Shown piece after piece: positions 8,108 through 48,080 of a DNA stretch of 64,000 bases (its first letter is position 1; each line of letters starts with the position of its first letter). A model generated the notes under the pieces. That model saw only the letters and a program-made list of their open reading frames with translations, searched no databases and had not been told where the DNA came from. The stretch is from Planctomycetes bacterium syqfu (lineage in GTDB: Bacteria; Planctomycetota; Phycisphaerae; Phycisphaerales; Phycisphaeraceae). Location of the stretch: the NCBI GenBank assembly GCA_020974905.1, contig CP087563.1, forward strand, positions 6,696,001 to 6,760,000. The letters run 5' to 3'. The position numbers and the translations under genes are program-made.

Positions 8108-10018
8108 ATGCCCATGATTTCAACCATTGGTCGCAAGAGTCTGCGTGTTCGACTGCTCATCAGTGGGATTTATCTGCTGCTGATCGTCGGCTCAATCACC
8201 ATGGTCTATCCTTTCATGTTGATGATCTCCGGCAGCACCAAGAGTTCGGTTGACCTCAACGAACTGCGCATCGTCCCGGGTTTTCTAACAGAAAACGACA
8301 CGTTGTACCGCAAGTATCTCGAAGGCTTGTTCAACGAGAAGATGGATCTGTTCAAGCTGACATACAACGTGGATGATTCGAGTTTTGAATCCGCATCCGT
8401 ACCCCAGCAAGTCAACGACCAATACGTCGACGCATGGGAAGCCTTCCTGACGCAAGCCGATATGGGACCGTATGCCAGCATGATCGGCATGATGGAAATG
8501 CCGGTGACCAAAACCGTGCAGGCCGAAATGCTGCGCGCGTTCATGGGCGAAATGGCCGACGCCAACGACGGTGATATTGAAAAAGTCAACGACGCGCTGG
8601 GCACACGCTTCAGCAGTTGGAGTACGTTTGTCATCCGACCTCAGCCGTATCTGCTTCGACGTCAGATGCCCAACCCCACGCCATTAGATGATCGACTCCA
8701 GAAATTTTACGCACAGGCACCGGATGTCTATCGTTTTTATCCCAGTGTCACCGGCATGTATCGCAGTCTGTTTCTCAAGACGCAGTACACCCGCGATATC
8801 GCCGAATACAACAAAGCGCATGGCACAAATTACGCGGACTACAACAAGGTCCACCTGTCTCAGACCTATCCGGTCAATGGGACTGATCTGGAAAAAGAAG
8901 ACTGGGAAAACTTCGTCCGCCAGACCGTCAACCTGCTTTGGCTAAATGCCGATGAGTCCTCCCGCCTGATTTTTACGCGTTTTCTCAAAGCCAAGTATCA
9001 AAGCATTGATGCGGTGAATCAAGCCTATGCCACCAACTATGCAAGCTTTGAACAGGTTCCGATGGGGGGCTTGCCTTACACCACGCCGCAGCGTCTTGTC
9101 GATTGGCAGAGCATGATCGAAGGTTGGGTCGATGCGAACTCGGGAGATCGTTTGATCATTCCCATCGAGTCGATTCGTTTTGACTCAGTGGACTTTCGCT
9201 TTGCCGATTACCTGCTTCAAAAGCATGGTTCGATCGAGAAAGTCAACGCTGCCTTGGGAACGGACTTTGCCAGCCGCGAGGATATCACGACTCCGCAGCA
9301 GCAGTGGCATTACCGCATGTTCCAAGCCAGGACCGGTGATCTGAAATGGGAGTTTCTGGTTCGTAACTACATCACGGTGATCAACTACATCGTGCTTCAC
9401 GGACGCGGTGTGTTTAACACGGTGGTTTACTGTGCGCTGGCGATTCTCTCCGCGTTGATCGTCAACCCGATGGCAGCCTATGCGATGAGTCGGTACAAGA
9501 TGCCTTCGACGTACAAGGTGCTTTTGTTCCTGATGCTGACGATGGCTTTCCCGCCGATGGTCACGCAGATTCCCAACTTCCTGATGCTTCGAGAACTTGG
9601 TTTGCTCAACACGTTTGCTGCATTGATCCTGCCGACCTTGGCCAATGGTTATGCGATCTTTTTGCTCAAGGGCTTTTTCGATTCACTGCCCAAGGAACTC
9701 TACGAATCCGCCTCGTTGGATGGTGCCAACGAATGGGTGATGTTCTGGCAGATCACCATGAATCTCTCCAAGCCGATTCTGGCAGTCATCGCATTGCAGG
9801 CCTTTAATCATGCCTATGCCAACTTCATGTTTGCCCTGCTTACCTGTCAGGATGACAAGATGTGGACATTGATGGTATGGTTGTACCAGTTGCAGTCCAG
9901 CAGTACCCAGGGCGTGGTGTTTGCTTCTCTGATGATTGCTGCCGTGCCGACGTTTTTGGTGTTTGTTTTCGCGCAAAACATCATCATGCGTGGTATCGTG
10001 GTGCCTGTGGAGAAATAA
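8108..10018 (+). CDS. ABC sugar importer: MalG-type permease with giant extracytoplasmic insert (copy 1)
   Basis: A 636-residue permease, more than twice the usual MalG length. Membrane helix 1 is at about residues 15-42. The next ~370 residues are soluble, and the remaining helices start near residue 425. The EAA loop is KELYESASLDGANEWVMFWQ (about residue 529-548). The insert holds four copies of a motif of the form (I)xxxNxAxGTxYxSxxxV: VNDALGTRFSSWSTF (~160), YNKAHGTNYADYNKV (~235), VNQAYATNYASFEQV (~303) and VNAALGTDFASREDI (~379). The same motif follows the acid/base glutamate in the two GH42 proteins of this window. The insert should lie outside the cytoplasmic membrane, where it could contact the tethered binding protein or a glycan; this is inference. 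The CBM9-like gene starts 2 bp after its stop, so they are surely co-transcribed. Confidence 0.85.
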   Translation: MPMISTIGRKSLRVRLLISGIYLLLIVGSITMVYPFMLMISGSTKSSVDLNELRIVPGFLTENDTLYRKYLEGLFNEKMDLFKLTYNVDDSSFESASVPQQVNDQYVDAWEAFLTQADMGPYASMIGMMEMPVTKTVQAEMLRAFMGEMADANDGDIEKVNDALGTRFSSWSTFVIRPQPYLLRRQMPNPTPLDDRLQKFYAQAPDVYRFYPSVTGMYRSLFLKTQYTRDIAEYNKAHGTNYADYNKVHLSQTYPVNGTDLEKEDWENFVRQTVNLLWLNADESSRLIFTRFLKAKYQSIDAVNQAYATNYASFEQVPMGGLPYTTPQRLVDWQSMIEGWVDANSGDRLIIPIESIRFDSVDFRFADYLLQKHGSIEKVNAALGTDFASREDITTPQQQWHYRMFQARTGDLKWEFLVRNYITVINYIVLHGRGVFNTVVYCALAILSALIVNPMAAYAMSRYKMPSTYKVLLFLMLTMAFPPMVTQIPNFLMLRELGLLNTFAALILPTLANGYAIFLLKGFFDSLPKELYESASLDGANEWVMFWQITMNLSKPILAVIALQAFNHAYANFMFALLTCQDDKMWTLMVWLYQLQSSSTQGVVFASLMIAAVPTFLVFVFAQNIIMRGIVVPVEK

Positions 10019-10020
10019 AG

Positions 10021-10722
10021 ATGTCGATCACAGCACAATCAATGGATGTCAATGAAGTGTCCGCCTACCATGTGACGCGCGTCAATCAACCGGCTGGCCA
10101 GTTACTTGATTTATCGGATTGGCAGGCAATCCCGGCATTGGACATTGCGCAGGTGCATGCCAAGAGTTCAGCACATCAACCAGCAACGCAATGTCGCATG
10201 GCTTGGCAGCCCGAAGGGATTCACCTGCGCTTTGATGTCGACGATCAATATGTCTGTTGTCGACAGGCTAAGCACCAGGGGCCCATCTGCACCGACAGTT
10301 GTGTTGAGGCCTTTTTGCAGCCCGATCCTGAGAAGGGGTATTTCAATTTTGAGATCAACCCTGCGGGGATGATGCATGCCAGTTACATCTATGACAACAG
10401 CCGGACCTCGAAGGGGTTTAAAGGGGTTTCATACTTGAGCCCCACGCAACTGGAGCAAATCAAACTCACGCCGGTCTTTGACCAACCCTTTGAGGATGAA
10501 ATTCCTGAGCCGATGTCATGGTCGATGACCGTTTGGATTCCCGTGTCGGTTTTTGAGGACTTTCTCGGGCCGATCTCAGTTAATGATCAGACCCGTTGGC
10601 GTGGGAATTTTTACAAGTGTGCTGACGCCTCGTCCCATCCGCATTGGTTAAGCTGGCAATCGGTTGGCGAACAACTCAGCTTCCACAAACCCAGCACCTT
10701 CGGTTCGCTGATCTTCCGTTGA
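10021..10722 (+). CDS. CBM9-like carbohydrate-binding protein
   Basis: This 233-residue protein resembles the carbohydrate-binding family 9-like group (single beta-sandwich domain). The features seen are MAWQPEGIHLRFDVDD in an early strand, the TDSCVEAFLQPD segment with an FNFEINPAG strand pair, and a C-terminal WRGNFYKCAD and HWLSWQ pattern typical of these proteins. No signal peptide is visible, so a cytoplasmic or non-classical location is likely. The start at 10021 lies 2 bp after the permease stop and has GGAG 9 nt upstream. The family often accompanies sugar importers and glycosidases, and its exact role there is not established. It probably ends the operon: a hairpin-forming repeat (10871-10904) lies between it and the convergent M14 gene. 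Confidence 0.7.
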   Translation: MSITAQSMDVNEVSAYHVTRVNQPAGQLLDLSDWQAIPALDIAQVHAKSSAHQPATQCRMAWQPEGIHLRFDVDDQYVCCRQAKHQGPICTDSCVEAFLQPDPEKGYFNFEINPAGMMHASYIYDNSRTSKGFKGVSYLSPTQLEQIKLTPVFDQPFEDEIPEPMSWSMTVWIPVSVFEDFLGPISVNDQTRWRGNFYKCADASSHPHWLSWQSVGEQLSFHKPSTFGSLIFR

Positions 10723-10870
10723 GTCATCATATGAAACCTCCGTCAAGATGACGGTGCCATGTATATAGCCGAGCCATCTTGGCTAGGTTGCCTTGAGCGA
10801 TGTTCTTGAATTCACCTGCAATCAACGAGTGCGGTGCGCTTCAAACAATTCATGTTCATTCTATCGTTGA

Positions 10871-10904
10871 TTCCGTCACTTCCGCCTGCGTGGGAGTGAC
10901 GGAA
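10871..10904. repeat. Short palindromic repeat between convergent genes
   Basis: TTCCGTCACT (10871-10880) pairs perfectly with AGTGACGGAA (10895-10904); three further pairs extend the stem around a GCCTGCGT loop. The left arm matches the left arm of the larger palindromic element at 19821-19918, so both belong to one dispersed repeat family. Placed between two convergent genes, it could also act as a bidirectional transcription terminator. Just upstream, CCGTCAAGATGACGG (10740-10754) forms another small hairpin. Confidence 0.6.
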
Positions 10905-10930
10905 AGTGGAGACTCGTTATTTGTACTGAT

Positions 10931-12067: not shown

Positions 12068-12069
12068 GG

Positions 12070-12668
12070 TTATCCAATGACTTGAAAGTGTTGTAGACCC
12101 TGCATGATGATCTGGACCGCTAACGCGCTGAGAATCAGGCCGGTGAGTTTACTCATGACGTTGATACCTTTGCGGCCGAGTTTCTTTTCGAGCGTGTCCC
12201 CGATCGCCAGCAGGATACCCAGCGTCAGGATTGCTGCCAACAGGGCGCTGTACCCAATTGCGCGGTCTTCAAACGTTCGCAGTTCCGAACCCATGACCAT
12301 CAAGACACCAATGGTCCCCGACCGACGATTACGGGGATCGCCAGCGGGACAACCGCGATGTCCTGCGTGCCTTTCTGCATGTCGTAAAACTCCTTGCCCT
12401 GCACCAGTGAAATGGCAGAGAGCAGCAGCAGTATCCCTGCACCAATGCGAAAGGCATCGAGCGTGATCCCCATGACTGCAAACAGGTAATCACCACAGGT
12501 CAGCAGGACCGCGCTGATGACCACGATGGCAATGATCACGCGACGAATGATCGCAAAACGCTCTACCTTGCTGCAATCTTTAGACCACGTCAGAAACGAA
12601 GTCAAAGCCACGAAGGGCGTGAGAATAAAGAACAGTTTCAGATACGTATTGATGAATTGACTGAGCAT
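12070..12668 (-). pseudogene. MarC-family membrane protein, frameshifted
   Basis: Two adjacent frames together encode a full MarC/UPF0056 family protein of about 200 residues with roughly six membrane helices. The first part (12668-12300) runs to QDIAVVPLAIPVIVG and then reads RGPLVS and stops. The family expects GPGTIGVLMVM here, and that sequence is present one base out of frame. A single missing base near 12320-12321 (TCCCCGACC instead of TCCCCGGACC on the plus strand) restores it. The second part (12303-12070) continues to the normal C-terminus. Either the gene is inactivated or the assembly lost one base of a short run. MarC proteins are inner-membrane proteins of unsettled function. The M14 gene follows after 2 bp. 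Confidence 0.75.
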
Positions 12669-12731
12669 AGCCGTATCTCCAGGGCGGCATTGAAAAAACC
12701 ATCCAATGCCGTGAATTCGTGTCCGCCTATT

Positions 12732-15287: not shown

Positions 15288-15301
15288 CAAGGAAATAGAT
15301 C

Positions 15302-19918: not shown

Positions 19919-19977
19919 ATTAGAAATCTCATGGTGAATCATTGTTTTTCATGCTCTATTCGGAAAGCAGTTCTCTT

Positions 19978-22900
19978 ATGCGCTTTGGTCAGTTTGTATC
20001 CATCTTTGTTCTAGGGTGTTCTCTTGTCTGCTCATCGCAAACCTCGGCACAATCGCTTGTTGATCCGCTGAACCTGGCCGTCGTGCCTCTGAATTCACAT
20101 ATGGATCAAGTCGGCTGGCCGATCCTTGCAGGGCGCAATGGCGGATGGGGGCGATTTCCCAATTACTACTCCTACAAACGTGTCGAGATGGATGGCATGG
20201 CCTGTCTCATCGACACCTACCCGCACTCGCAGATCCACGGTTCGAGTAATGCCATCCGCATCGATTGGGATGGTGATCCGGCCAACGGCATGACGCCACT
20301 CAAAATCACACCGGGCATGCAACTTGAATTTGGTGTTTCGGTCTATATCCAACCCTGGACACATAACACACTTCGTTCGCACTATGTCCGCGATGGCACG
20401 CGCATGGTGCAATGGCGCATGGGGCCGGGCATGGTCCCTGAAAAAATCAAACCCATTGAGGATACTCGCAAGGTTAAAGATTTCAGTTGGCATACCCAGC
20501 GCGGGCCGCGTATCGGCTATCGCGTGGGCGATGTGCCTGATCATGATCCCACAGGAAAGCCTGTATTTGAAGCTTTTTCTGCGTTATCCGATCAAGTACA
20601 TACTTCGATGCAGGGATCACAAATTGCCTGTTGGTTCGATTTGAAACTCACCGTGCAATTCACTGAAAAAGCCAACACCGCAACCTGTCAGGCATTCTTC
20701 AAACCAACGGATGAACAGGCCTGGCAAAGTGTCGGTGAGTCTTGGACCATCACCTGGGATGCCAATGACAAGGATGCAAACAACCCAGCCAACTGGAATG
20801 CGTTGATCCTGGACATGCCTTATGCGCAGTGGTCGACCAAGGGCTACGGCCAACCTCAGGAGCACATGTTTGACCGCTATCGCCAGTTCACCGTCAAGGT
20901 TCAATTGCCAAATCAGCATCAGGTCGAAAAGCGAACAGAACTGATGCGCTTCGACCGTCAGGCAACCGCATGTCGGATGCTTATGCCCAGGTATGTCTTT
21001 GCGGATCAGCCGATTCCTGTGGAATTACAGGTTGTCAATGCATCCGGCGAGGACCTTCAAGGTGACCTGTTACTCAAAGCCCAAGACAGCGAACAACTGT
21101 TGGAAAAAGATTGGACACTGGCTCCCGATAAACAGTGGCAGGCCCTTCGCCGTTTTGCACCAGTCATTGACCTTTCCGAAATGACATTCGAATTGCTGAT
21201 CCGCAAAGCCGATGGCAAACAGCAATTATTGGCTAAAGAATCATGCGATATCATCAATCGCAACCTGCCCGGACCGACTGAAAATGTGCTTTATAACAGC
21301 GGTTTTGAGAAGACCGGCAAGTATAACGGCTCGAAAATGTACCGCGGTTACGAACGCGTCTACAGCTATGCCAAGCGTGGCAATGATTCGCTTTACACCC
21401 AACTTCCTGTCCAGTCATGGTGGGCATTGGATGCTAACGCAGATGGCATCACCGTTGACCGCACACACAAACATGCTGGTGAACAATCTCTGCTGATCCA
21501 AGTGGCGGATAAGCCGATGACCGTGGTCAGTGCCCCGGGCAATTGGCTTCCTGCTGGTGATGTGACGCTCTCTGCATGGGTCCGTTCAGAGCAGGCCGAT
21601 GCGACATTACAATTGAATTTACTCACCTCGGACGATCAAATCCTGCCACGCCGTGTCACCGTGCTTGAGAAGCAGAATCTCCCCGCCACGTCGGATTGGG
21701 TGCGTGTAACAATGAGCACCAGGATTGATCGACCGATGCAGGCATTGCCATGTCTGAACGTGCAAAAGGGCAAGGTCTGGATTGATGATCTGATGGTCCA
21801 GTCATCGCCGCAGGCAACGGACTATGCGCCGATCCCCACCGAGTGGATTGTCTTGGATATCTCAGGGCAGTCTGCTGATTCGGTGCCGATCTGGTCTGCC
21901 GGTGATACATCCAAACGTCAACTTATTCTGTCATCCCATGTGCCCGAGCATTTGCGTGGTTACGTGCAAATCTCCCTTGGAACATGGGAAAAACTGGCAA
22001 CGCAATCATTGGGACGCGTGGCTTTATCCGAACTTCACAGCCAGAAGAAAGTCAGCATCGACTTTGAAACATCACAGCTCAAACCCAATGCCTACGTTAT
22101 CTCAGCCGATGTGCATTTGGATGATGGACGCGTGATCAAAGGGGCAGGGCAGTTTCTCCCAAATCTCAGAATTGCCGGCAGTGCATCTGCCACGCAGGTG
22201 TTATCGCAGATGGTGATGCGCTTTGCCATTGCCCCAAGTTACAAACCCGCTGCGTTGTTTGGTGTTGGCAACGGAATGCTCGATCAACATGGCGATCACT
22301 TTGGAGGCTATCGCTTCAGTGACTACAAATGGGCAGGGCAGTTGGATTACATCTGTGACCGTGGCCGATACACCACGCAGAAAGGTTTTCTCATCGCTGC
22401 TGGGGGCATACCGACCCATCGCATGGAGTCACGCCGGTTGGATGTTGATCCAACACGCAACCGTGAGATTCAGAATCCGGCAAAAGGTGGGCGACTGGAT
22501 ATCTGGCATCCGGATGGACGCAAAGTATTTCTGGAACAAGCCGAATCAATCGGCAAGGAAAACGGTGAGAATCCGCAGATTGCTTCCTACCAGATGGCCA
22601 ATGAGCAACCGTTCTATGGTAAGGATGGTCTCTGCCCAACACCTTCTGCCGACGCCGCGTTTCGCAAGTGGTGTCAGCAACGCCACGGTGATTTAAAAAC
22701 ACTCAACCAACGATGGGGCACCAACTACACCACATGGCAGCAAGTCGAACAGCCGCTCTCTGCACGTCAGTTGCAGGTCGTGCAAAGCCAGGAAAAACTC
22801 AAAGGTGCCGACGCCATTGCATGGACCGCGGTGTATGGCAAGATGAGTAAGCAGGTTCAAACGCTGATGCAATCGGTCCCAGGGCGTGGCATGGACTGGT

Positions 22901-24375
22901 ATCGCTGGCGCACCGAAGCTTCTCTGGAAATGTTCACGCAGTTCCGTGAGCAGGCACGCAAGCACGATACCAAGACGCTCTACAGCACCAATCTCTGTTG
23001 GCCGAACTTCTGGCCGCAGATGGCCATGCCGTTTTTCCGCGCAATGGATGTCACCATGCTCGATATGGAGTATTCCGCTGGTCAGAAACGTGGACTCGGT
23101 AACCCGCAGGAAATGATGGAAATCATGGAGATGTTCGAGTCCAACGCACCGGGTAAACCGATGTGGGGCATCGAAGTCTACGTCCAACCCCAATGGCCCG
23201 CAGCATCGGCAGAACTGCAAAACTGGGGACTTTTAGCTCATGGCATGACCAATAACCTGATCTTCGGATGGCGTCCGTACTCTGATCATGGTCGCGTTCG
23301 TGGCACCCGCGCTTGGGAAAAAGACAAAGCGCATCCCATGTGGTTTCTTATTGACAACGACGGAACGCGCTTGCCGAGTTTCGATGCAGTCGAAAAAACC
23401 AAGGCACAAATTCATCAGTTCCATAAGCGCTATGACGGCTTGTCTCTCAAACGTTATCCGACCAACATCGGCATATACGTCTCCGATGACACGTCAGAAT
23501 ATCTGAGCTACATGACAGCCAATCGTCCGTACAATATCCCGTTGACCGCATCGCGTAACACGCTCATTTACCTGATGCGCATGGCTGGCTTACAGGCGGA
23601 CTATCTGGATGATCAGTTACTCGAATCAAAACGCAAACAGTATGACACGTTGATTCTTCCCCCGACGCCGTTGCTCAGTGACAAAGCTGCAAAACAAATT
23701 GCTGACTTTACACAACGCGGTGGCAAACTCATTCTTGTCGGAGCAGCAGGGCAACTCGACCCCTGGCTTATTCCCGTCTCCCCATTAGGTGGTAATGCAT
23801 GGGCTGATTTGAACTGGATCGCGCCGGACTATCAACATCGACAACTGCAAAGCAACGGTCATTTCCGTGGCGTTAATCCCGGCAATATCTCCAACGCCAA
23901 ATCAATCGTGGACTCACACAACCAAACCATCGGGTGGCATAAAACATGGGGGCAAGGTCACGTCTATGTCTACGCCGTTTACCCTAGTTTTTACGTGCAA
24001 AATCCACACATGCCAATCGACATGCATCAGTGGATGCAGCGCATGATCGAACTGACGGACTTGCCGGTCAACGCACGTTGGATCAACGACCAAACACCGG
24101 TGTATGACCCAAAGGTCAAGCATGGCAAAGGTTCACCGGTGGTGGAAGTTGTCCTGCGTAGAAAGTCCGACAAGGAAGTCTTTGCCTTTGTACTCAATCA
24201 GGGTGGCCAAGGGGAAGGCCGCATGCAATGCAATCTCCCCGGCAACTGGCAGATCACCGATGTCCTCACCGACCAAGCCATGCAACCAATTCGCGAGCAC
24301 AATAAAACGTCCGTGAAGCTGTCGCTGCCTGACTTTGGTTACCGTGTCTTTCGCATGGTCAAGACGGGTTCGTGA
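19978..24375 (+). CDS. Very large exported GH42-like beta-galactosidase-type protein
   Basis: This 1465-residue protein starts with a signal peptide (MRFGQFVSIFVLGCSLVCSS). The N-terminal ~700 residues are mainly beta-sandwich carbohydrate-binding-like modules. A GH42-like catalytic barrel follows from about 740: the putative acid/base glutamate is E876 in QMANEQPFYG, and the putative nucleophile is E1066 in MWGIEVYV. About 30 residues after E876 comes LNQRWGTNYTTWQQV, the motif shared with the permease inserts. A GATase-type trimerisation domain follows (TLIYLMRMAGLQADYLDD, FTQRGGKLILVG, ~1180-1275), then a small C-terminal domain. GH42 enzymes usually have ~650-700 residues, so this is about double. 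It probably cleaves beta-linked galactosides or a related polysaccharide outside the cytoplasm. It follows the pseudopilin gene by 279 bp and converges on the esterase gene with a 12 bp gap. Confidence 0.75.
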   Translation: MRFGQFVSIFVLGCSLVCSSQTSAQSLVDPLNLAVVPLNSHMDQVGWPILAGRNGGWGRFPNYYSYKRVEMDGMACLIDTYPHSQIHGSSNAIRIDWDGDPANGMTPLKITPGMQLEFGVSVYIQPWTHNTLRSHYVRDGTRMVQWRMGPGMVPEKIKPIEDTRKVKDFSWHTQRGPRIGYRVGDVPDHDPTGKPVFEAFSALSDQVHTSMQGSQIACWFDLKLTVQFTEKANTATCQAFFKPTDEQAWQSVGESWTITWDANDKDANNPANWNALILDMPYAQWSTKGYGQPQEHMFDRYRQFTVKVQLPNQHQVEKRTELMRFDRQATACRMLMPRYVFADQPIPVELQVVNASGEDLQGDLLLKAQDSEQLLEKDWTLAPDKQWQALRRFAPVIDLSEMTFELLIRKADGKQQLLAKESCDIINRNLPGPTENVLYNSGFEKTGKYNGSKMYRGYERVYSYAKRGNDSLYTQLPVQSWWALDANADGITVDRTHKHAGEQSLLIQVADKPMTVVSAPGNWLPAGDVTLSAWVRSEQADATLQLNLLTSDDQILPRRVTVLEKQNLPATSDWVRVTMSTRIDRPMQALPCLNVQKGKVWIDDLMVQSSPQATDYAPIPTEWIVLDISGQSADSVPIWSAGDTSKRQLILSSHVPEHLRGYVQISLGTWEKLATQSLGRVALSELHSQKKVSIDFETSQLKPNAYVISADVHLDDGRVIKGAGQFLPNLRIAGSASATQVLSQMVMRFAIAPSYKPAALFGVGNGMLDQHGDHFGGYRFSDYKWAGQLDYICDRGRYTTQKGFLIAAGGIPTHRMESRRLDVDPTRNREIQNPAKGGRLDIWHPDGRKVFLEQAESIGKENGENPQIASYQMANEQPFYGKDGLCPTPSADAAFRKWCQQRHGDLKTLNQRWGTNYTTWQQVEQPLSARQLQVVQSQEKLKGADAIAWTAVYGKMSKQVQTLMQSVPGRGMDWYRWRTEASLEMFTQFREQARKHDTKTLYSTNLCWPNFWPQMAMPFFRAMDVTMLDMEYSAGQKRGLGNPQEMMEIMEMFESNAPGKPMWGIEVYVQPQWPAASAELQNWGLLAHGMTNNLIFGWRPYSDHGRVRGTRAWEKDKAHPMWFLIDNDGTRLPSFDAVEKTKAQIHQFHKRYDGLSLKRYPTNIGIYVSDDTSEYLSYMTANRPYNIPLTASRNTLIYLMRMAGLQADYLDDQLLESKRKQYDTLILPPTPLLSDKAAKQIADFTQRGGKLILVGAAGQLDPWLIPVSPLGGNAWADLNWIAPDYQHRQLQSNGHFRGVNPGNISNAKSIVDSHNQTIGWHKTWGQGHVYVYAVYPSFYVQNPHMPIDMHQWMQRMIELTDLPVNARWINDQTPVYDPKVKHGKGSPVVEVVLRRKSDKEVFAFVLNQGGQGEGRMQCNLPGNWQITDVLTDQAMQPIREHNKTSVKLSLPDFGYRVFRMVKTGS

Positions 24376-28708: not shown

Positions 28709-31700
28709 TTACTCAGAGTCGTCATTGAATAACGCAATCGCCTTGTCTTTGAGTTCCTTCGAGACATTGGAATTGTGGCGATTGATCAGGTTCACGTATT
28801 TGTCTCTGGTTGTCGTGTCGATATTTTTGAGAATGCCACGTTTGATCAGGAAACGAATGGGTTGCAGTGGTCCTTCCATGTCGTATTTGGAATAGCCAAC
28901 GTTGATGGACCGATGATTGAGATAGGATCCCAAAACGGTCAGGCCGTGTTGATCGGTATGTTGGATATCAGCTCCCAATGCCAACAACTGATCGAAGAGA
29001 TCTTCATTTCGCCATGAGTCTGGTGTATAGAAGCGTCGGAGCAAGTGATTTCTGCAAGTCTGGTAGGCATAGAACAGAACCGTCTGGCCGTTTTCATCCA
29101 CCGCATTGATATCGTAACCTTCATCATTGATCATCTGCTCGAATCGTTGGAACTCATCGCGAGCCAGGGCTTCAATCAAGTTGGTGGCATCCTGTTGCGG
29201 GAGTTTTCGTTTTTCAAAGACATTGACAATGTCTGCCTGATTGTAATGCCGGGCCAGTTCCAGAGCCGTGAATGATTTGGCGTTGATGCTCCGCCAATTG
29301 GCGCCGCGATCAAGCAAGAATTCCGTCACTGGTACGTGACCATTGGCACTGGCATACATCAGGGGCGTCCAGCGATCATGACCCGTCGCGCTGATGTTGC
29401 ATCCTGCATTAAGAAGCCTTTGCACCAATTCCAGATCACCGCGGCTTGCAGCATACAACAATGGATCAGACGTAAGACGATTGCCCGAGGAACCGTTTGA
29501 ACTGGAATTGTTGTCGCGCCATGTCAGGTATAACATGGCCTTGTCATGCTCATCGACCTTGACAGCATCAACAATCATGCGATCCAGTGTTGAATCATTC
29601 AGATCATCAGGTCGTGGTTGAGTGGCAATGAGGCCCGATGATTTGTTTTGATTGTCCAGGTAAAGTTTCAGGAGATTCCGAGTTTGGGGGCGGCGTGCCA
29701 GGCTCAGGGCGGTTTGCCCATTCCTGTCCTTCATCGAGAGATCCGCATTGGCCTGCATCAGCAGGTAACAAGCCTCGGTCCGACCAGCTTGGGCGCACAG
29801 CATCAGTAAGCTCTGGCCTTCATCGTTTCGTTGGTTGATTGGATAGCCGTGCTCAATCAGCCAGTCGATGGTTTTCAAATCATCCGTTGTGTCACGATGC
29901 AATACGGATAACGGGGTGTGTCTGGCGACATCCCATCCCTGCTTAAGAAGCATGTCCAGCAACCTGGTGTCTTTCACGGAAAAGACAAGCTTCAACAGTT
30001 GCGGGTCATTGGGATGATTGATCTGAGAGATCGTCTGGGCAATAAGGGATTGATCATCCAAAGCAATGGCTATTTTGAGCATCAACGCAACAGGTTCCGA
30101 ACCAGGCTGATCGTTAAGCCATCGGACACATTCACTCACACGTTGCGGGTTAATGGGCACATTCAGCGTGCGATACTCAGAAAGGTTAATGGCAGTCAGA
30201 TCGATCATACTTGATGTAAGTAATGCTTGCAGGTAATCGGGCTGATGACTGGATAGTGCTGCAATGAGCGTGTTTTCGTCCTTGATCGGTATTCCGTCAT
30301 GATGCTTGCAAAGGTGATTAAACAGTGCTTGATCATCCATCAGAATCGACATCGTCAGTGGTGTGAGTGTTTGGGACTTGTAGTTGCCCGGGGACATGTT
30401 GTGGGGGTGATACCACAAACGCATGCTCTGATATTGACCGGGCGGATCATACTTTGCCAACGCATTGTAAATCTCAAATTGATGGTTGGCTTGAGCCATG
30501 CGTTTGAGTTCGCCATAGTGACGGGCTTTGTGTTCCCATTGTTGTTGTTTTCGATACAGCCAGTATCCGTTGCGAAGTTCTTCATAGCGTTTTTTGCTGA
30601 ATTCACTGGGTGGATCCAATGCGCAGAGACGAAGCAGTAACTGGAACACTTTTGGACGTCTGAGCGTCAATGCCTGTTTCAGTGGGATGATTAACTCTGA
30701 CAGGTCATAGCCAGTTTCCGGATACATCGCGCCAGCGAGTTTCATAAACTGTTTATCAGTGCTATGGAACATAGCAGCCTTGAGAATCTGCTGTCCAAAC
30801 CGGGTTTGATTGCGGTTTTTGCGTTGATATTCCCCGGCCCATTGGATCACTGGTTCCAGTTGGCCGGCGTAGGCAAGACGTATGGCCTGGTGCTTGTCCC
30901 GCGTGTCTGCAATACCGCCAAGCGGTTGGTCCCTATTCCATCGGATATCAAGGGGCTTCTGTGCGTCCGGATGATCGGTCAGTAAATCGATCAAGAGTCT
31001 GGTTGTGTTCAAATCAACAACTGCCCAGAGATGTCCATCAGCGGCGTTGATCGCAAGTAAATCACCGGGCATCGTGAAACGTTGTGTAATCGCCTGTTGC
31101 TGCATGTCCCAGACCAGGATATAGCTATGCCAATTCACAATGGACTCATTGGAAGTGTTACGCGGTTGCTGATGGTGAGTTACTTGTTTGGCTTGGCGGT
31201 AAGCCAGGTAAAGTCGTTGGGAGTCAGCTGCGAGCATGTCGGGTTGAATGTCCATGGGCAGCTTCCAGGTATGTGCCTGCTGACTTTGCATATTCAAATG
31301 GATCAACTGATTTTGGGTCGTTAGGTATAGATCGTTTTGATGACTGGTTGATTGTTGAGCATGGATCGAGGTGTAGGATCTTTGTATGTATTGACCATTG
31401 GGCATGGTGAAACCCGGCTTGGTGAGTTGATCGCCAAGTTGTCGGTGCAGGATCTCTCCGAGTATTTCGACTTTGCCTGTGTTAAAGTCGTAGAGAAAAC
31501 GGTCATCAAGAAAGATCCACTGACCGAGCGCCTGCATGTTTTTACCATTGGGCTGGAACATTCCTTGTATCTGTCGATTAAGTTTTCTCTCGATGATTTT
31601 ATGCGTGTTCAGATCAATCAAACTGATCCGATGATCCGAATGACAGACGATCAGTTGATCACCGATGCGTGTCATGCCGGTGGTTGACGTGTTGGCCAAG

Positions 31701-34162
31701 CCTTCTTTGAGCCCAATTGAGATACGTTTACCGGTGTCCAGATCAATGACGATAATACCGTTTTGTGAAAGATAGGCTTTGTTCTGAAAGATGATCAGAT
31801 CATTTAAACCTTTGGCTTGATTGTGTGGTTGTTCGCTTGTCATGGAACTTTCAAACGCAGCATTGAAAAAGCAGGCGTTCTGATCCGTTTCAAGCACACC
31901 GACGTGATCATTTTCAACGACCAGTTTGATGGCACGTGAATTGCTTGCATGATGACCATCGTGTTGTCTTGTCATCACCTGCAGGTTTTGATCATGGACC
32001 ACCGGCCAGTGTACCTGAGGGATATCCAATGTCTCTGCAGGATGTGCAGGCGCTTGCTGCCACGTAATGATGCCTGAACCAGGTCGACGATTTGGCGGAT
32101 GTTGGCTATTGAGCTTGCGATGGACGGACTTGAGAATTTTTGGGTCAACCTCAGGGCCATCAGAGAGTGTCTGAGCAACTGCTGTGGTTGAAGCTGCAGT
32201 TTGCTTTCGGAGCGTCTGGGCTTGGCGTTGTTGCCGCTCTTGATGTCGTTTTTCAACATCAGCAACATATTGTTCATAAGTCTGCTGTTCGCGAGCAATC
32301 AATTGTTGGATGACCTGTTTTGTACGTCGGGTGTCCTGATTGTCGAGTGGTAATTGATCGATCGTGTGCTCGAGACTGCTCAGAGACTTGAACAAGTCAG
32401 CACGATTGTACTTTTCCGATTGATCCAGAATCGTTGGCAGGAAACGTTCAAGACGGTTGCATCGCTCCAATGTCTGCGTGAACGAATTCTTCATCACATC
32501 CAACGGCATATCCAACGGAAAGATGAATTGCGCAAACGTCCAGTTCAAACCCATGTCATTCGTATTGCGTGTTGATTTGAGATAAAAATTGGCTTTGACA
32601 TGATCATTGAGTTTTCGGAGATAGCTCGTGGTTTCATAGGCATATTCCTTGACCGGGGCCAACGGAAACCGCGTGAAGAAATCCTCCCAGCGATCAAGCT
32701 CTCTACGCGAATTGCGTGTCAGACCAGGTGAAGTTCTGTAATTGGCATAGGATTCAAATTTCGCACGCTCAAGCGCAATCTTGTAGTCCGTCGGATCAAA
32801 AAACAGGGCCAGATCGATTTGATCTCGTTTGTATTTTGCATCGCCGCGGAGTTCGGTAATCAGGCTATGAGCAATGTGTGCATTGAGTCCTTTGCAGATG
32901 GTCTGCGAACGTGTCGGGTTGAGTTTGCTTTTGAGTTCATCGATCGTCTGATGCATGGCCGTTTCAAATTCAGCGATCCTTGTTTGATGTTCAGTTTGCG
33001 TTGGCAGATTCAGGCCATCCCAACTGTAGAGCTTGATGGTGACTGGGATGTCATCCACGGGCGTATTGTCCGGGTACTTGCCTTCGGCGTAATAACCCCA
33101 GAGATATTGGTCAGCAACATACTGCCAGGCGTTGGGATCATGCTCCGCCAGCCCGGTGATACCCATAGCCTGTTCCTGGCCGGTATGTTCAAGGCCGGCA
33201 ATTTTCAGGACGTGGATGTTGGATTGATTCGTCCACTTTTCGATGTTCTTTCGAAACGCCGTTTGATAATGTGTCAAGCGTTGGGAACTGGAGCGGTTGT
33301 GTATAAACAATGGGGCGATCAGTAGCTTGTCAGCGAGTTGCCTGCGTTGGATGATGGCTTGTTTGACCAATGCCGGTGCAGTCTGGTTGATCAGGGAAAC
33401 ATCTTCTTGAGTTGGGGCGAAGTGCCCTTCGTAGTGGGCCTGAAGTTTGAGGTCTTCCTGCACCAGGATATTGGTATGAGCCGTATCAATGACCTGCATT
33501 TTCAATGTGGTTTGTTTGCTGTCTTTGTCTTGAACCACAATGTGACGCAGGATCATGTCTGCCTTGAGAATCGCCCCAAGGCGCATGCTCTGGTTGGCAT
33601 CCATCCCCAGGGACAACGTCATTTCGCTGATCGCCTGCTTGATCTGTTGTCGGTCGACAAGTCGGACGCCCGATACATCAATCAGTGATGCCATCGTCAG
33701 GTCAGCAAGATTGACCGAAGCCAATTGGTTGCGATACCAGTTGGGGTTCAACTCGAATGGAGTGACCAGCAGGGTGCTTTGTGTCTCGGGAGTGGGGGCC
33801 TTGGCACGTTGGATTTTTTCAGCCGAGTCAATGAACGCCTGTAATTCTTTGGGTGACTGTGCGACGGATCGTTTGTAGCGATAGTTTGATGCGGTGACTT
33901 TTTGCCGATCATTTTGGTAGGCACTGTTACGCTCTGCGATCATCTTCTGAATACGCTCTTCAGAGACACCACTTTTACGCAGGTTTTCAATGACAGTCTG
34001 CGGCAGGGGGGGAGGCACTGCTGGTTTAGCTGCAGGTCGATGCTGTCTTGGCTCGGGTTTGCTGTCAAAAAGCCCCATGGTGTTACAGATGGTGTAAACA
34101 CAAGCACTCAGACTCCCGACAATAAAGACCGTCAGCACAATTTTTTTAATCAGATTGGTCAT
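28709..34162 (-). CDS. Giant lipoprotein with CsgG-like, propeller-like and ankyrin regions
   Basis: An 1817-residue predicted lipoprotein: basic N-terminus, hydrophobic stretch, lipobox LSAC with Cys at 21. Residues ~120-260 resemble the CsgG/FlgO-type fold (LVDRQQIKQAISEMTLSLG, then ADMILRHIVVQ), aligning with the separate CsgG-like protein at 36901. After a helical section there is a charged Gln-rich coiled coil (~640-670). Residues ~690-1080 look like a beta-propeller with repeated ixDLxTgk strands (IIVIDLDTGKRISIG, ISLIDLNTHKIIERK). A helical region and at least six ankyrin-type repeats (~1430-1800) follow, such as LLYAASRGDLELVQRLLNAG and TPLMYASANGHVPVTEFLLD. It starts within the stop of the upstream ankyrin gene (4-bp overlap), so the two are translated together. 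Function unknown; an envelope scaffold or sensor is a guess. Confidence 0.8.
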   Translation of the reverse strand: MTNLIKKIVLTVFIVGSLSACVYTICNTMGLFDSKPEPRQHRPAAKPAVPPPLPQTVIENLRKSGVSEERIQKMIAERNSAYQNDRQKVTASNYRYKRSVAQSPKELQAFIDSAEKIQRAKAPTPETQSTLLVTPFELNPNWYRNQLASVNLADLTMASLIDVSGVRLVDRQQIKQAISEMTLSLGMDANQSMRLGAILKADMILRHIVVQDKDSKQTTLKMQVIDTAHTNILVQEDLKLQAHYEGHFAPTQEDVSLINQTAPALVKQAIIQRRQLADKLLIAPLFIHNRSSSQRLTHYQTAFRKNIEKWTNQSNIHVLKIAGLEHTGQEQAMGITGLAEHDPNAWQYVADQYLWGYYAEGKYPDNTPVDDIPVTIKLYSWDGLNLPTQTEHQTRIAEFETAMHQTIDELKSKLNPTRSQTICKGLNAHIAHSLITELRGDAKYKRDQIDLALFFDPTDYKIALERAKFESYANYRTSPGLTRNSRRELDRWEDFFTRFPLAPVKEYAYETTSYLRKLNDHVKANFYLKSTRNTNDMGLNWTFAQFIFPLDMPLDVMKNSFTQTLERCNRLERFLPTILDQSEKYNRADLFKSLSSLEHTIDQLPLDNQDTRRTKQVIQQLIAREQQTYEQYVADVEKRHQERQQRQAQTLRKQTAASTTAVAQTLSDGPEVDPKILKSVHRKLNSQHPPNRRPGSGIITWQQAPAHPAETLDIPQVHWPVVHDQNLQVMTRQHDGHHASNSRAIKLVVENDHVGVLETDQNACFFNAAFESSMTSEQPHNQAKGLNDLIIFQNKAYLSQNGIIVIDLDTGKRISIGLKEGLANTSTTGMTRIGDQLIVCHSDHRISLIDLNTHKIIERKLNRQIQGMFQPNGKNMQALGQWIFLDDRFLYDFNTGKVEILGEILHRQLGDQLTKPGFTMPNGQYIQRSYTSIHAQQSTSHQNDLYLTTQNQLIHLNMQSQQAHTWKLPMDIQPDMLAADSQRLYLAYRQAKQVTHHQQPRNTSNESIVNWHSYILVWDMQQQAITQRFTMPGDLLAINAADGHLWAVVDLNTTRLLIDLLTDHPDAQKPLDIRWNRDQPLGGIADTRDKHQAIRLAYAGQLEPVIQWAGEYQRKNRNQTRFGQQILKAAMFHSTDKQFMKLAGAMYPETGYDLSELIIPLKQALTLRRPKVFQLLLRLCALDPPSEFSKKRYEELRNGYWLYRKQQQWEHKARHYGELKRMAQANHQFEIYNALAKYDPPGQYQSMRLWYHPHNMSPGNYKSQTLTPLTMSILMDDQALFNHLCKHHDGIPIKDENTLIAALSSHQPDYLQALLTSSMIDLTAINLSEYRTLNVPINPQRVSECVRWLNDQPGSEPVALMLKIAIALDDQSLIAQTISQINHPNDPQLLKLVFSVKDTRLLDMLLKQGWDVARHTPLSVLHRDTTDDLKTIDWLIEHGYPINQRNDEGQSLLMLCAQAGRTEACYLLMQANADLSMKDRNGQTALSLARRPQTRNLLKLYLDNQNKSSGLIATQPRPDDLNDSTLDRMIVDAVKVDEHDKAMLYLTWRDNNSSSNGSSGNRLTSDPLLYAASRGDLELVQRLLNAGCNISATGHDRWTPLMYASANGHVPVTEFLLDRGANWRSINAKSFTALELARHYNQADIVNVFEKRKLPQQDATNLIEALARDEFQRFEQMINDEGYDINAVDENGQTVLFYAYQTCRNHLLRRFYTPDSWRNEDLFDQLLALGADIQHTDQHGLTVLGSYLNHRSINVGYSKYDMEGPLQPIRFLIKRGILKNIDTTTRDKYVNLINRHNSNVSKELKDKAIALFNDDSE

Positions 34163-35697
34163 TTATCACCCCCGTTCTCCAACAACTGTTTGGCAGTCGA
34201 GACGGCCTGGGTGATGATCTTCTGGATGTCAGGTGTGCTGTACTGCCTGGCATATTCGATAATATCTATCTGATGGGTATTCTCGTAGAGGTTGTCGAAG
34301 TCAACGCGATGAAGGTCGGATAGTAAAATCTGAATCATTTCCACATCACTCTTTTTCACAGCAATCGGCAAGGCGGTCCTGCCCACCGGTACACCGAGTT
34401 TGAGTATGGCTTTGACGAAAGCATGAGCTTGTGCTGACACGCCGCGACTCACCGGGTCGTGATGCAGTGTGTTTGTTTTCTGAATTTTGTAACCGTATTC
34501 AATGAGCCAATTGACGAACTGGACTTTCCGAATATGTGAACCTAACAACATGTAGATTTCCCGGTTGAATTCCGGGGTATTGATGTCAACACCTGCAAAC
34601 AGGCAGTCATTGACTTGCGACCATTTTCCCTGTTTGATTGCGTTGCGCATTCTATTTTCCAGAACTCGATTGTGTTCATATGCAATGAAGGTTTCAAAGT
34701 TGGCATCTGTAATAATGCGGACCTGATCCAGTTGCCCGCGATGTTGCGCAAACTTCAAGGCGTGTTTGATAAAATCAGTCCGACAGGTTTGGCTGATGGT
34801 TGGTGCAAGGACTTTGAGCTTTACGGTATCTGCTTCAAGAATGGTGTCGATGATGCGTTTTTCCTGCTGATCGGTCTGGGTGTTTTCCGACCATCGCGTG
34901 ATCTGAAGCAGTGCCCGGGCGCAATCCAGATGATAAATGTCAAAAGCAACATCCATTGCCGTTTCTTTGTCACTGCGATTGATGGCCATCCCCAGCTTGC
35001 CGAATGTCAACACCAGGTCCGGGCGATTGTGTTTGATGGCAAAGTACATCAGCCAACCCGGGACCAGATCGTGATCCTCTGGGCGCAATCCTTTATCAAC
35101 AAGGTGTTGGAAAATCTCGAATCGTCCGTTGTACAGTGCCCAGCCCAAGGGTGTGAGATTGATACGGTTGGTGATTTTTACATCCGCGCCGTTGGCAATC
35201 AGAACATCCAGACAGTCGGTAGCACGGTTGATTGCAGCGAAATGCATCGCTGAGTTACCGCCTTCATGGTTGGGTAATCTTGCATCCAGTGGGACACCTG
35301 CCTTGATTGCTCGCTTGATGAAATCAGCATTGTTTTTGACGCAACCTGCCATCAAGGTGGTATACCCGAAGTCGGTTTGATCGTTGGCATCCGCGCCATT
35401 TTCCAGCAGCCAGTCGACGATTGTCGTGTGTCCTTGATTCAATGCTGTGATCAACGCGGTAAAACCTTTTTCCGTGCGTGAACGGATGTACGGTCCATCC
35501 TGGTTGAGTGTCTTGAGTTTTTGCAGATCACCATCATGGACTGCTTGCCACCAGACCTTTGGTGCGGTTTTGATAGCTTGAAACTGATTGAAGTCGGGTA
35601 TCGCCTGGGCAAATGTATGGGATGCCTGATAGGAGATCAAAATCAAACTGATCATGCCGACGGTCAGTCGACATGTCTTGAGACGCTCAATTGGCAT
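34159..35697 (-). CDS. Exported ankyrin-repeat protein
   Basis: A 512-residue protein with a signal peptide (MPIERLKTCRLTVGMISLIL, cleavage near FAQA). Most of the rest is ankyrin repeats: GFTALITALNQGHTTIVDWL, GYTTLMAGCVKNNADFIKRA, NSAMHFAAINRATDCLDVLI and LTPLGWALYNGRFEIFQHLV are clear, and the later repeats are degenerate. The start at 35697 is supported by AGGGG 7-9 nt upstream and by the signal peptide; the frame is open further upstream but without such support. It overlaps the giant lipoprotein gene by 4 bp (ATGA), so both products are probably made in matched amounts. It diverges from the 35880 gene across 182 bp. It probably mediates protein-protein contacts in the periplasm; partners unknown. 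Confidence 0.85.
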   Translation of the reverse strand: MPIERLKTCRLTVGMISLILISYQASHTFAQAIPDFNQFQAIKTAPKVWWQAVHDGDLQKLKTLNQDGPYIRSRTEKGFTALITALNQGHTTIVDWLLENGADANDQTDFGYTTLMAGCVKNNADFIKRAIKAGVPLDARLPNHEGGNSAMHFAAINRATDCLDVLIANGADVKITNRINLTPLGWALYNGRFEIFQHLVDKGLRPEDHDLVPGWLMYFAIKHNRPDLVLTFGKLGMAINRSDKETAMDVAFDIYHLDCARALLQITRWSENTQTDQQEKRIIDTILEADTVKLKVLAPTISQTCRTDFIKHALKFAQHRGQLDQVRIITDANFETFIAYEHNRVLENRMRNAIKQGKWSQVNDCLFAGVDINTPEFNREIYMLLGSHIRKVQFVNWLIEYGYKIQKTNTLHHDPVSRGVSAQAHAFVKAILKLGVPVGRTALPIAVKKSDVEMIQILLSDLHRVDFDNLYENTHQIDIIEYARQYSTPDIQKIITQAVSTAKQLLENGGDK

Positions 35698-35879
35698 GTG
35701 TTTTCCCCTGAATGTGAAGATGTGACGAATATGGGTATTATACAAAATAGTGTTTTGTTTTGTTGAGGCCTTCATTTCGGGTTTACTTGGTTGATTCAGA
35801 CACTTAAACTTGAAATGAACGAACCGCACGGGTGTGATTCAGTTCATATCACAGTTCGATTTTTCCCGGGGATCTGCAC

Positions 35880-41594: not shown

Positions 41595-41624
41595 GTTGTC
41601 CCGTTTGATGAAATGGAAGTGATG

Positions 41625-43337: not shown

Positions 43338-43352
43338 ATGATTGGATGAGCA

Positions 43353-46145: not shown

Positions 46146-46169
46146 TGCAACCTATACGGAACCTGCCCC

Positions 46170-48080
46170 ATGTCTTTGATCTCTACAATCGGTCGAAAAA
46201 ATTATCGTGTCCGTCTGCTTATCAGCGGAATCTATATGCTGTTGATTGTCGGCTCAGTCACCATGGTTTATCCATTTATGTTGATGATTGCAGGCAGCAC
46301 CAAGAGTAATGTGGATGTCAACGAGATGAGCGTAATCCCTGATTTCTTAACCAGTGATGTCAAGCTCTATCGCAAGTATATTGAAAGCCTCTTTAACGAA
46401 AAGATGGTTTTGTATAAGTTGACTTACAACGTGGACGAAGCGAGTTTTGAAAGTGCAGAGCTTCCAGAATCAATCAATGATAAACTCGTCGATAGTTGGG
46501 ATACATTTCTGAAACAGTCTGATTTACCGAGCTATGCCTCCACGGTGGGGATGATGAACATGCCTGCTTCCAAGGGGGTTCAGCCATTGCTGTTGCGACA
46601 GTTTATGGGGGAATTAGTAAATGAGTATGGTGGTGATATCGGACAGGTCAATCAAGCTCTTGATACACAGTATTACAGTTGGAACACGTTTACTGTTCGC
46701 CCCGAACCGTTTATTCGTCGACGTGAAATGCCCAATCCATCGCGCATTGAAAGTTGTCTTTCAGAATTCTATCAATCGGTACCGGATGCCTACCGCTTTT
46801 ATCCCAGCATCCCCGGTATGTATCGATCACTTTTTCTTAAAACCCAATACACACGAAATATCAAGTCATACAACCAAGCACACGGGACGAATTATGACAG
46901 TTATGATCAAGTGCATTTAACACGTACTTTCCCAACTGATGGCACGCATGAACAGAAAGCTGATTGGGTCAACTTTACCCGGCAGACGGTCAACCTGCTT
47001 TGGCTCACTGCAATGCCTTCGGCGCGTCCGATGTACGAACGCTTTCTCAAAGCCAAGTATGCCACCCTCGACGCATTGAACCAGGCGTATGCAACAAACT
47101 ACGAAAGCTTTGCCGATGTCCCCATGGCAGGCTTGCCTTACACCACGCCCCAACGCCTCGTCGATTGGCAAGGCATGATCGAAGGTTGGGTCGATCCTGG
47201 TACTGGCGAAAAATTCATCATTCCCGATGAAGCACTGATGTACGATTGCACAGACTTCCGCTTTGCTGACTACCTGCTGAAACAACATGGTTCGCTTGAC
47301 AGCATTAACACCGCTCTGGGTACAGATTACACAAGCATTGCTGACATTCACCCGCCACAAAAACAGTGGCACGCGCGTTTGTTCCGCGACATTACAGGCA
47401 AACTTCGCTGGGAGTTTGTTGCACGCAATTACATCACGGTATTTAACTACATTGTCCTGCATGGTCGCGGTGTGTTTAATACGGTCGTCTATTGTGCCCT
47501 GGCGATTCTCTCTGCTTTAATCGTCAACCCGATGGCCGCTTATGCGATGAGTCGCTACAAAATGCCATCGACGTACAAGGTGCTTTTGTTCCTGATGCTC
47601 ACGATGGCCTTCCCGCCGATGGTCACACAGATCCCCAACTTCCTGATGCTGCGTGAACTGGGCCTGCTCAACACATTTGCAGCCCTGATTCTCCCGTCAT
47701 TGGCCAACGGTTATGCCATTTTCCTGCTTAAGGGCTTTTTCGATTCACTGCCCAAGGAACTCTACGAATCCGCAGCATTGGATGGTGCCAACGAATGGGT
47801 GATGTTCTGGCAGATTACCATGAATCTCTCCAAGCCGATTCTGGCGGTTATTGCGCTGCAGGCATTTAACCATGCCTATGCCAACTTCATGTTTGCACTG
47901 CTCACCTGCCAGGATGATAAGATGTGGACACTCATGGTATGGTTGTATCAGTTACAAGCTGGTAGTTCCCAGGGCGTGGTGTTTGCCTCTTTGTTGATTG
48001 CAGCCGTGCCAACATTTATTGTATTTGTTTTCGCGCAAAACATTATCATGCGCGGCATTGTTGTTCCTGTTGAGAAGTGA
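46170..48080 (+). CDS. ABC sugar importer: MalG-type permease with giant extracytoplasmic insert (copy 2)
   Basis: A 636-residue paralogue of the protein at 8108-10018, of identical length. Helix 1 (YRVRLLISGIYMLLIVGSVT) is followed by ~370 soluble residues and then the remaining helices, with EAA loop KELYESAALDGANEWVMFWQ. The insert again has four copies of the N-x-A-x-G-T-x-Y motif: VNQALDTQYYSWNTF, YNQAHGTNYDSYDQV, LNQAYATNYESFADV and INTALGTDYTSIADI. The last ~215 residues differ from copy 1 at only about ten positions, whereas the insert is far less similar. The membrane core is therefore under strong constraint or was homogenised, and the insert has changed. An SGNH esterase gene starts 4 bp after the stop. 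Confidence 0.87.
   Translation: MSLISTIGRKNYRVRLLISGIYMLLIVGSVTMVYPFMLMIAGSTKSNVDVNEMSVIPDFLTSDVKLYRKYIESLFNEKMVLYKLTYNVDEASFESAELPESINDKLVDSWDTFLKQSDLPSYASTVGMMNMPASKGVQPLLLRQFMGELVNEYGGDIGQVNQALDTQYYSWNTFTVRPEPFIRRREMPNPSRIESCLSEFYQSVPDAYRFYPSIPGMYRSLFLKTQYTRNIKSYNQAHGTNYDSYDQVHLTRTFPTDGTHEQKADWVNFTRQTVNLLWLTAMPSARPMYERFLKAKYATLDALNQAYATNYESFADVPMAGLPYTTPQRLVDWQGMIEGWVDPGTGEKFIIPDEALMYDCTDFRFADYLLKQHGSLDSINTALGTDYTSIADIHPPQKQWHARLFRDITGKLRWEFVARNYITVFNYIVLHGRGVFNTVVYCALAILSALIVNPMAAYAMSRYKMPSTYKVLLFLMLTMAFPPMVTQIPNFLMLRELGLLNTFAALILPSLANGYAIFLLKGFFDSLPKELYESAALDGANEWVMFWQITMNLSKPILAVIALQAFNHAYANFMFALLTCQDDKMWTLMVWLYQLQAGSSQGVVFASLLIAAVPTFIVFVFAQNIIMRGIVVPVEK

Follow-up and report, generated by a model that had tools for sequence, protein, structure and literature searches.

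Sugar permeases of the MalG/UgpE type, such as MalG of Escherichia coli (2r6g, chain G), typically have a short loop between the first and second transmembrane helices (TM1 and TM2), and the block between these helices measured 32-53 residues in 25 ordinary MalGs. In the importer OpuA, according to the available text of its description, permease and binding domain form one covalently linked polypeptide, in which a short linker plus a membrane segment hold the binding domain (PMC11065425). Among the glycoside hydrolases (GHs), the available text on a GH164 enzyme describes a subdomain of helices, labelled "subdomain H" in one figure legend, which is located after the fourth strand and before the next helix and is also found in GH42 (PMC7105311); the enzymes so described have it as a single copy in the TIM barrel. 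Here we describe two MalG-type permeases, P0001 and P0002, which are encoded in a 64,000-nucleotide stretch of the genome of Planctomycetes bacterium syqfu (CP087563.1, positions 6,696,001 to 6,760,000; this whole stretch is called the window) and which differ from E. coli MalG by a 394-residue block between TM1 and TM2. We have little doubt that this block is a tandem array of five units homologous to the glycosidase piece, without the barrel or the catalytic glutamates. No description of such a permease was found among the matches listed in a literature search covering titles and the beginnings of abstracts, with most subscription journals and bioRxiv outside its scope; the permease is of a known kind, and its repeat domain is one that we have not seen described in the literature searched.

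The two permease genes, both with open reading frames (ORFs), are as follows.

8108..10018, + strand: MalG-type permease copy 1 (P0001, 636 aa); BPD_transp_1 at residues 458-625 (49.4 bits), UgpE/MalG profiles
46170..48080, + strand: MalG-type permease copy 2 (P0002, 636 aa); BPD_transp_1 (50.1 bits); 74% identical to P0001

The BPD_transp_1 (PF00528) scores of both exceed the Pfam cut-off of 26.4. The matches to MalG-type profiles begin only at residues 421-435, and the C-terminal portion, starting near residue 430, is an ordinary MalG/UgpE core, which is alike from TM2 to the C-terminus in E. coli MalG. In the full-length AlphaFold model of P0001, whose predicted local distance difference test (pLDDT) score is only 63-77 over much of the membrane core, Foldseek matched this core to 2r6g_G (E 3.2e-8, target-normalised TM-score 0.62). 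The initial annotation had pointed to a large insert between helices 1 and 2 of both permeases, and this was borne out by the length of the TM1-TM2 block, measured in the same way as in the ordinary MalGs. Neither permease has the short loop typical of MalG; as PF00528 is not defined by the length of this loop, we treat both as variants of MalG. The N-terminus is basic and the insert follows TM1, so the insert is probably extracytoplasmic. A third paralogue elsewhere in the same genome (L003; the genome is a single contig of 7.38 Mb) is 73% identical and has a block of 391 residues, and the nearest relatives on genome contigs, in metagenome-assembled genomes (MAGs) labelled Phycisphaerales and Phycisphaeraceae, are 79% and 94% identical.

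Four copies of a motif per insert had been claimed in the initial annotation. Four are detected by hidden Markov model (HMM) in each permease, at residues 145-176, 222-250, 289-319, and 364-396 of P0001 (nucleotides 8540-8635, 8771-8857, 8972-9064, and 9197-9295) and at nucleotides 46602-46697, 46833-46919, 47031-47126, and 47259-47357 in P0002; profile comparison and the structural model add a degenerate fifth unit, R0, so that the array counts five. The insert and its units are listed below, with the model helices in P0001 numbering.

8234..9415, + strand: insert between TM1 and TM2 of copy 1 (residues 43-436), as modelled (AlphaFold insert-only model)
8273..8461, + strand: unit R0 of copy 1 (residues 56-118), degenerate fifth repeat, from model helices and profile-profile comparison; helices 63-74/79-86/104-116
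8525..8716, + strand: unit R1 of copy 1 (residues 140-203), from HMM, model, and hhalign; helices 140-152/157-164/192-203
8747..8926, + strand: unit R2 of copy 1 (residues 214-273), from HMM, model, and hhalign; helices 214-227/231-238/260-273
8954..9121, + strand: unit R3 of copy 1 (residues 283-338), from HMM, model, and hhalign, bearing most of the GH structural alignments; helices 283-297/300-307/327-338
9188..9328, + strand: unit R4 of copy 1 (residues 361-407), from HMM, model, and hhalign, continuing into TM2; helices 361-373/376-383/397-406
46335..46523, + strand: unit R0 of copy 2, by alignment to copy 1
46587..46778, + strand: unit R1 of copy 2, by alignment to copy 1 and HMM
46809..46988, + strand: unit R2 of copy 2, by alignment to copy 1 and HMM
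47016..47183, + strand: unit R3 of copy 2, by alignment to copy 1 and HMM
47250..47390, + strand: unit R4 of copy 2, by alignment to copy 1 and HMM

HMMs were built from single blocks over 32 relatives, with the own block masked in the targets and 640 shuffled inserts per block as decoys. The best matches across blocks, all of them in relatives, reached 3e-13 (45 bits) for R3, 2e-10 for R4, 3e-8 for R2, and 5e-7 for R1, and the best one within the proteins of the window was 7e-9 (R4 HMM to R3 of P0002); the top shuffled decoy scored 7.7 bits. The R0 block was weak by HMM (best 0.007, 11.7 bits; best decoy 4.3), and in profile-profile comparison it scored 85-97% against R1-R4 and 90.5% against the GH segment, with column-shuffled R2, R3, and GH controls at ≤9.4%. 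Inside one protein the R1-R4 copies are on average 19-29% identical in register, against an out-of-register mean of 5-7% (maximum 12%). Units in the same position are 31-40% identical across the family, from which we infer that most of the duplications predate its spread.

The insert modelled alone with AlphaFold from an alignment of 48 sequences (pLDDT 91.9; predicted template modelling score, pTM, 0.89) is helical, with few strands, each of ≤3 residues, and shows the identical order of helices five times, with unit starts 69-78 residues apart. In VIA structural alignment, 26 of the 30 rows were glycosidases and three were a beta-1,2-glucosyltransferase of Ignavibacterium, which also bears the name beta-galactosidase; the exception was 8eki (Z 2.2). 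A single unit of the predicted model superposed at 1.8-3.2 Å over 59-68 residues in 29 of these rows. The top match was the GH35 enzyme GlmA (5gsm; Z 8.0, 1.8 Å, 64 residues), and lower Z-scores were obtained with the beta-galactosidases 5e9a (7.9), 6y2k (7.4), and 3tts (6.9), beta-amylase 1b90 (6.4), the GH50-type agarase 4bq3 (4.6), and the GH167 enzyme 9whd (3.7). Most alignments fell on insert residues ~238-312 (P0001 280-354), and two beta-amylase rows (1vep and 1ven) on insert residues 171-236, overlapping R2. We compared the position relative to the acid/base residue for two of the structures. The alignment covers residues 162-233 of 5e9a and 188-255 of GlmA, and these segments start shortly past the residues given in the available descriptions as acid/base, Glu-157 and Glu-179, respectively. 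The predicted fold thus does resemble the glycosidase segment, as the idea of the initial annotation required. Among the Foldseek and VIA matches listed we noticed none of the known solenoids (TPR, HEAT, ankyrin, etc.), which does not exclude them, and a viral structure library gave 88 matches to the insert at E ≤ 10 and none at E ≤ 0.001.

The same kinship is seen in sequence. PF02449 (GH42) scored 27.7 and 28.3 bits in P0001 and P0002 (cut-off 21) and was the sole Pfam family above its cut-off within the insert; GH14, DUF5868, ELMO_ARM, and CoV_NSP4_N appeared below cut-off, mostly weakly, and NCBIfam had no match in the insert proper. PF02449 also exceeded its cut-off in two relatives, with 42.3 bits in L048 and 58.1 in L121. 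Its best stretches in the window permeases span 37 and 59 of the 376 profile positions (153-189 and 156-214), so the remainder of the GH42 barrel is unmatched. The helical model has no (beta/alpha)8 barrel of the GH42 kind, and the catalytic glutamate pair of strands 4 and 7 is absent, no Glu being ≥90% conserved in the insert alignment. The array would thus explain, for the four array-bearing permeases tested, why PF02449 fires on barrel-less sugar permeases.

A profile of 100 repeats searched against 177,635 PDB sequences returned 35 at E ≤ 10, and all 31 at E ≤ 0.035 were carbohydrate-active enzymes, with 1kwg on top (2e-8): 15 are named beta-galactosidase, one is a GH42 exo-carrageenase, six are beta-amylase sequences, four agarase sequences, four sequences of the glucosyltransferase, and one a GH167 enzyme, many of the 31 being variants of one enzyme. 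The remaining four followed with E-values of 0.27 for a protein of the DASH complex, 1.9 for two sequences of endoglycosidase F1, and 2.0 for an annexin. With the insert profile, the first 28 of 33 matches (E ≤ 0.026) were such enzymes, and the next was RGS14 at 0.11. In the own genome the repeat profile had 26 matches at E ≤ 1e-4: the three permeases account for 11 of them, and 15 other ORFs have one each. PF02449 was above cut-off in 11 of the 12 motif ORFs tested (ten as cut loci, plus P0005 and P0006), the exception being L089; L074, L078, and L090 stood outside this test. No repeat match was found in the MalG of 54 control MalG-labelled loci among L141-L200. The window itself has two such single copies.

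22660..22746, + strand: single motif copy in the GH42-like protein at 19942-24375 (repeat HMM at residues 907-935; PF02449 56.7 bits)
54038..54103, - strand: single motif copy in the canonical GH42 protein at 52586-54670 (repeat HMM at residues 190-211; PF02449 398.9 bits)

In agreement with the initial annotation, which had placed the motif once in each of these proteins about 30 residues past the acid/base glutamate, it lies 32 (P0006) and 33 (P0005) residues after the putative Glu, and the single-block HMMs match P0005 at 5e-8 and P0006 at 3.5e-6. In hhalign comparisons with the GH segment of 13 GH proteins, R1-R4 scored 97.1, 97.5, 98.9, and 98.6%, respectively, against ≤3.6% for shuffled controls; as 11 of the 13 proteins had been picked by the motif, the motif columns are favored. 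No unrelated domain scored better, as that annotation had also expected. R2 and R3 aligned over 53 and 57 columns, including the helix after the motif. The idea that a piece of a glycosidase had been multiplied without its barrel is therefore supported by profiles and structure, with the correction that the unit exceeds the motif and includes the following helix. The proposed origin from GH42 needs widening: the likeness to GH42 is real, and the GH42-like piece is common to several GH families (GH14, GH35, GH50, and GH167) and not special to GH42. Helix order and sequence motif are common to the permease units and subdomain H of GH164 and GH42 enzymes (Bs164; Thermus thermophilus A4, 1kwg; Rahnella, 5e9a). 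The permeases differ from these enzymes, and from GlmA, beta-amylase, the agarase, and the GH167 enzyme, which hold a single copy in a barrel, by their barrel-less tandem array.

A gene for a MalE-type substrate-binding protein (SBP) fused to a MalF-type permease lies directly upstream of each window permease, and each fusion (P0003 and P0004) is a single polypeptide.

5168..8008, + strand: SBP fused to MalF-type permease, copy 1 (946 aa); SBP_bac_1 at residues 144-421 (51.3 bits), UgpA profile 79 bits
43353..46145, + strand: SBP fused to MalF-type permease, copy 2 (930 aa); SBP_bac_1 at residues 128-404 (67.7 bits), BPD_transp_1 at residues 741-913 (31.8 bits)

In copy 1, BPD_transp_1 at residues 754-929 stays below the cut-off (18.9 of 26.4), and the UgpA profile is clear. 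As in OpuA-like importers, SBP and permease share one polypeptide, and by eye a hydrophobic stretch follows the SBP; the window system differs in that a MalE-type SBP precedes a MalF-type permease and in that the other permease, MalG, bears the array.

A scan of genome contigs gave 32 loci, some of them from one MAG, with phyla taken from the record titles: eight from Planctomycetota (five of them Phycisphaer-), eight from Kiritimatiellae/Kiritimatiellaeota, eight from Lentisphaerae/Victivall-, three from Verrucomicrobia/Puniceicoccaceae, two from Spirochaetes (one MAG), and one each from Elusimicrobia, Cloacimonadota, and an unnamed bacterium. In a sample across phyla, which may overlap with these loci in organism, the insert was matched in 18 of 392 genomes, the own genome included (E ≤ 1e-6). 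The inserts of relatives are 348-910 residues long, and some lineages have more copies (L048 and L050 have seven that are detected, L043 and L044 six); in others the HMM detects only two or three. The longest insert, of 910 residues, belongs to L121 (604-4077, - strand; MalG frame of 1158 codons), which has space for about a dozen units, four of which are found clearly by HMM. Further additions were seen in single relatives: L036 (6127-7611) has an extra stretch with two CxxC pairs, zinc-ribbon-like, between R0 and R1, and the MalGs of L034, L035, L037, and L038 have about 60 further, partly hydrophobic residues late in the membrane core, which may form an additional pair of helices.

The SBP-MalF fusion adjoins the repeat-bearing MalG at 43 of 54 loci outside the window; L119, L122, and L123, where the contig ends leave no MalG core, are outside this count. 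The fusion is split at L003 (frame change) and at the second copy of L107 (stop). Six loci could not be judged, MalF being cut by the contig edge in L019, L028, L112, L125, and the first copy of L107, and L027 starting inside MalG. At L016, L020, and L024 no fusion is in view, and the same assembly has one on another contig; the contig of L020 ends just upstream, so adjacency is not judgeable there. The genome therefore holds the fusion in 46 of the 48 judgeable loci, and in the other two it is split. In the Kiritimatiellae MAGs of L016 and L024, other genes lie upstream of the array-bearing MalG, and its SBP-MalF partner is likely the one on the other contig; L020 may resemble them. In L140 (G000:C1:2259500-2265500), the third paralogous system of the own genome, SBP-MalF is divided between overlapping frames of 580 and 421 codons, in contrast to both window systems.

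The surroundings in the window include a CBM9-like protein, an alpha-L-fucosidase, a sulfatase, acetyl xylan esterase-type proteins, GDSL esterases, a PIG-L deacetylase, GH42 proteins, and ROK and AraC-type regulators. Because of these glycan-degradation and regulator genes, the context suggests that the substrate of the transporter is part of a complex polysaccharide that may be sulfated or fucosylated.

We tentatively read the insert as an extracytoplasmic helical scaffold of five tandem subdomain-H-like units, without barrel or catalytic residues, with a role in docking. A MalG ancestor would have captured a piece of a glycosidase barrel (a helix, a short helix, an extended turn, and a next helix) and multiplied it before the family spread. 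The binding protein, held by its tether, has to dock on MalF/MalG; the scaffold could guide this docking, and, less certainly, the array may steer the MalF-tethered binding protein onto the translocation path, or the scaffold could instead hold other periplasmic proteins, e.g., enzymes of the GH42 type. Put broadly, the extra domain probably helps to dock proteins or sugars over the pore, and by analogy with the enzymes protein-protein docking would be its most likely service: in the available text on GH164, subdomain H extends along domain B and is in contact with domain A of the adjacent chain, and the authors speculate that it helps to stabilise the trimer (PMC7105311), and in that on a GH42 enzyme two residues of apparently the same region, Trp-200 and Phe-221, which sit where long helices end, enter the substrate site of a neighboring subunit (PMC10688820). 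Several results weigh against this reading. Foldseek gave 89 matches to the insert at E ≤ 10 and none at E ≤ 0.001; its weak list is headed by GH50-type, GH42-type, and beta-amylase entries, and the 50 matches listed include clearly unrelated proteins at very low probability. VIA Z-scores of 4-8 are middling for helical repeats, for which Z < ~13 can be commonplace, and for this reason we weigh the structural match jointly with the sequence evidence, never alone. R1 and R4 matched the GH segment in the motif alone (40 and 38 columns). Insert length showed no clear correlation with SBP length (Spearman 0.23, p 0.13, n=43, rough lengths). Outside the family, the TM1-TM2 gap of fused systems is 32-53 residues in 25 of 30 cases and longer in five, with repeats in none; the rule that an SBP-MalF fusion implies an enlarged loop 1 of MalG was therefore rejected, and the array marks out a single clade of fused importers and is not something that fusion generally requires. 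Among unfused MalGs the gap exceeds 80 residues in 10 of 21, the comparison loci having been hand-chosen by frame length, not at random. These counts omit L140, as a paralogue from the own genome, L172 and L174, whose MalF frame showed no SBP, L193, in which TM1 was not found, and L145, L171, L190, L196, L197, and L200, in which MalG was not found; L139, taken from its frame lengths as a second fused system, is by eye a PstC/PstA-like pair and was dropped. The shortness of the unit, the poor Foldseek E-values, the middling Z-scores, and the motif-only matches of R1 and R4 would also fit a likeness to GH42 that arose by convergence on a common helix-turn-helix hairpin, without shared descent. 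We consider this very improbable, because the best PDB matches of the repeat profile are all carbohydrate-active enzymes and R2 and R3 are similar into the following helix far above shuffled controls, although the motif-picked GH proteins and the many variants of one enzyme temper both arguments.

The array might bind glycan chains, with a weak sugar site in each unit, so that the permease captures oligosaccharides and feeds them to the tethered SBP. Every solved protein matched by the repeat profile at E ≤ 0.035 is a carbohydrate-active enzyme, the window is rich in glycan-degradation genes, and Trp-200 and Phe-221 of the GH42 region touch the sugar according to the available text (PMC10688820), which counts against docking; the contact of the GH164 piece with a neighboring chain points the other way. 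In P0006 the Trp of an FW pair lies 41 residues past the acid/base Glu, nearly the 40 that separate Glu-160 from Trp-200 in the available description, so it is presumably the equivalent of Trp-200. The pentapeptide bearing it has no counterpart in the repeats in an alignment to 1kwg, a comparison that covers the Trp and not Phe-221, and this would speak against sugar binding; since several GH42-like proteins of the own genome also lack the pentapeptide, its absence is weak evidence. The sugar contacts and the weakness of this counter-evidence weaken docking and strengthen glycan binding, which we nevertheless regard as somewhat unlikely. The wide range of insert length and the fact that loop 1 of planctomycete MalGs also takes inserts without a repeat match would suit a passive spacer or a long-range anchor to the cell wall or outer membrane, in which length and not surface matters. 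We think this unlikely, as the unit sequence is kept across phyla (31-40% in the same position) beyond the need of a pure spacer. Because subdomain H is a subunit contact surface in GH164-type and apparently GH42-type enzymes, the array might even dock the cell's own periplasmic GH42-type glycosidases, as a transporter-borne enzyme scaffold made from the enzymes' own contact piece, which we offer as a long shot. If our preferred reading of a docking scaffold is true, a transporter family found in several bacterial phyla has put a portion of a glycosidase barrel to new use as an internal tandem repeat, and testable ideas follow on how a fused binding protein is guided onto MalF/MalG.

Loop 1 of other MalGs was also found to be enlarged. 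A large insert of a second type, some 300 residues or longer, is found in L135 (3085-4848), L137 (2776-4509), and L141-L144, beside another clade of SBP-MalF fusions; it is without the GH repeat and had no Pfam match in L135 and L137, the two tested. Still other inserts, strand-rich by eye, are found in the planctomycete MalGs of L177-L183, L192, L199, and L126, with MalF separate except in L126. Loop 1 of MalG looks like a general insertion spot in Planctomycetota. Between both transporter regions, the window also encodes two neighboring ankyrin-repeat proteins (1817 and 556 aa) at 28709-35829 on the - strand.

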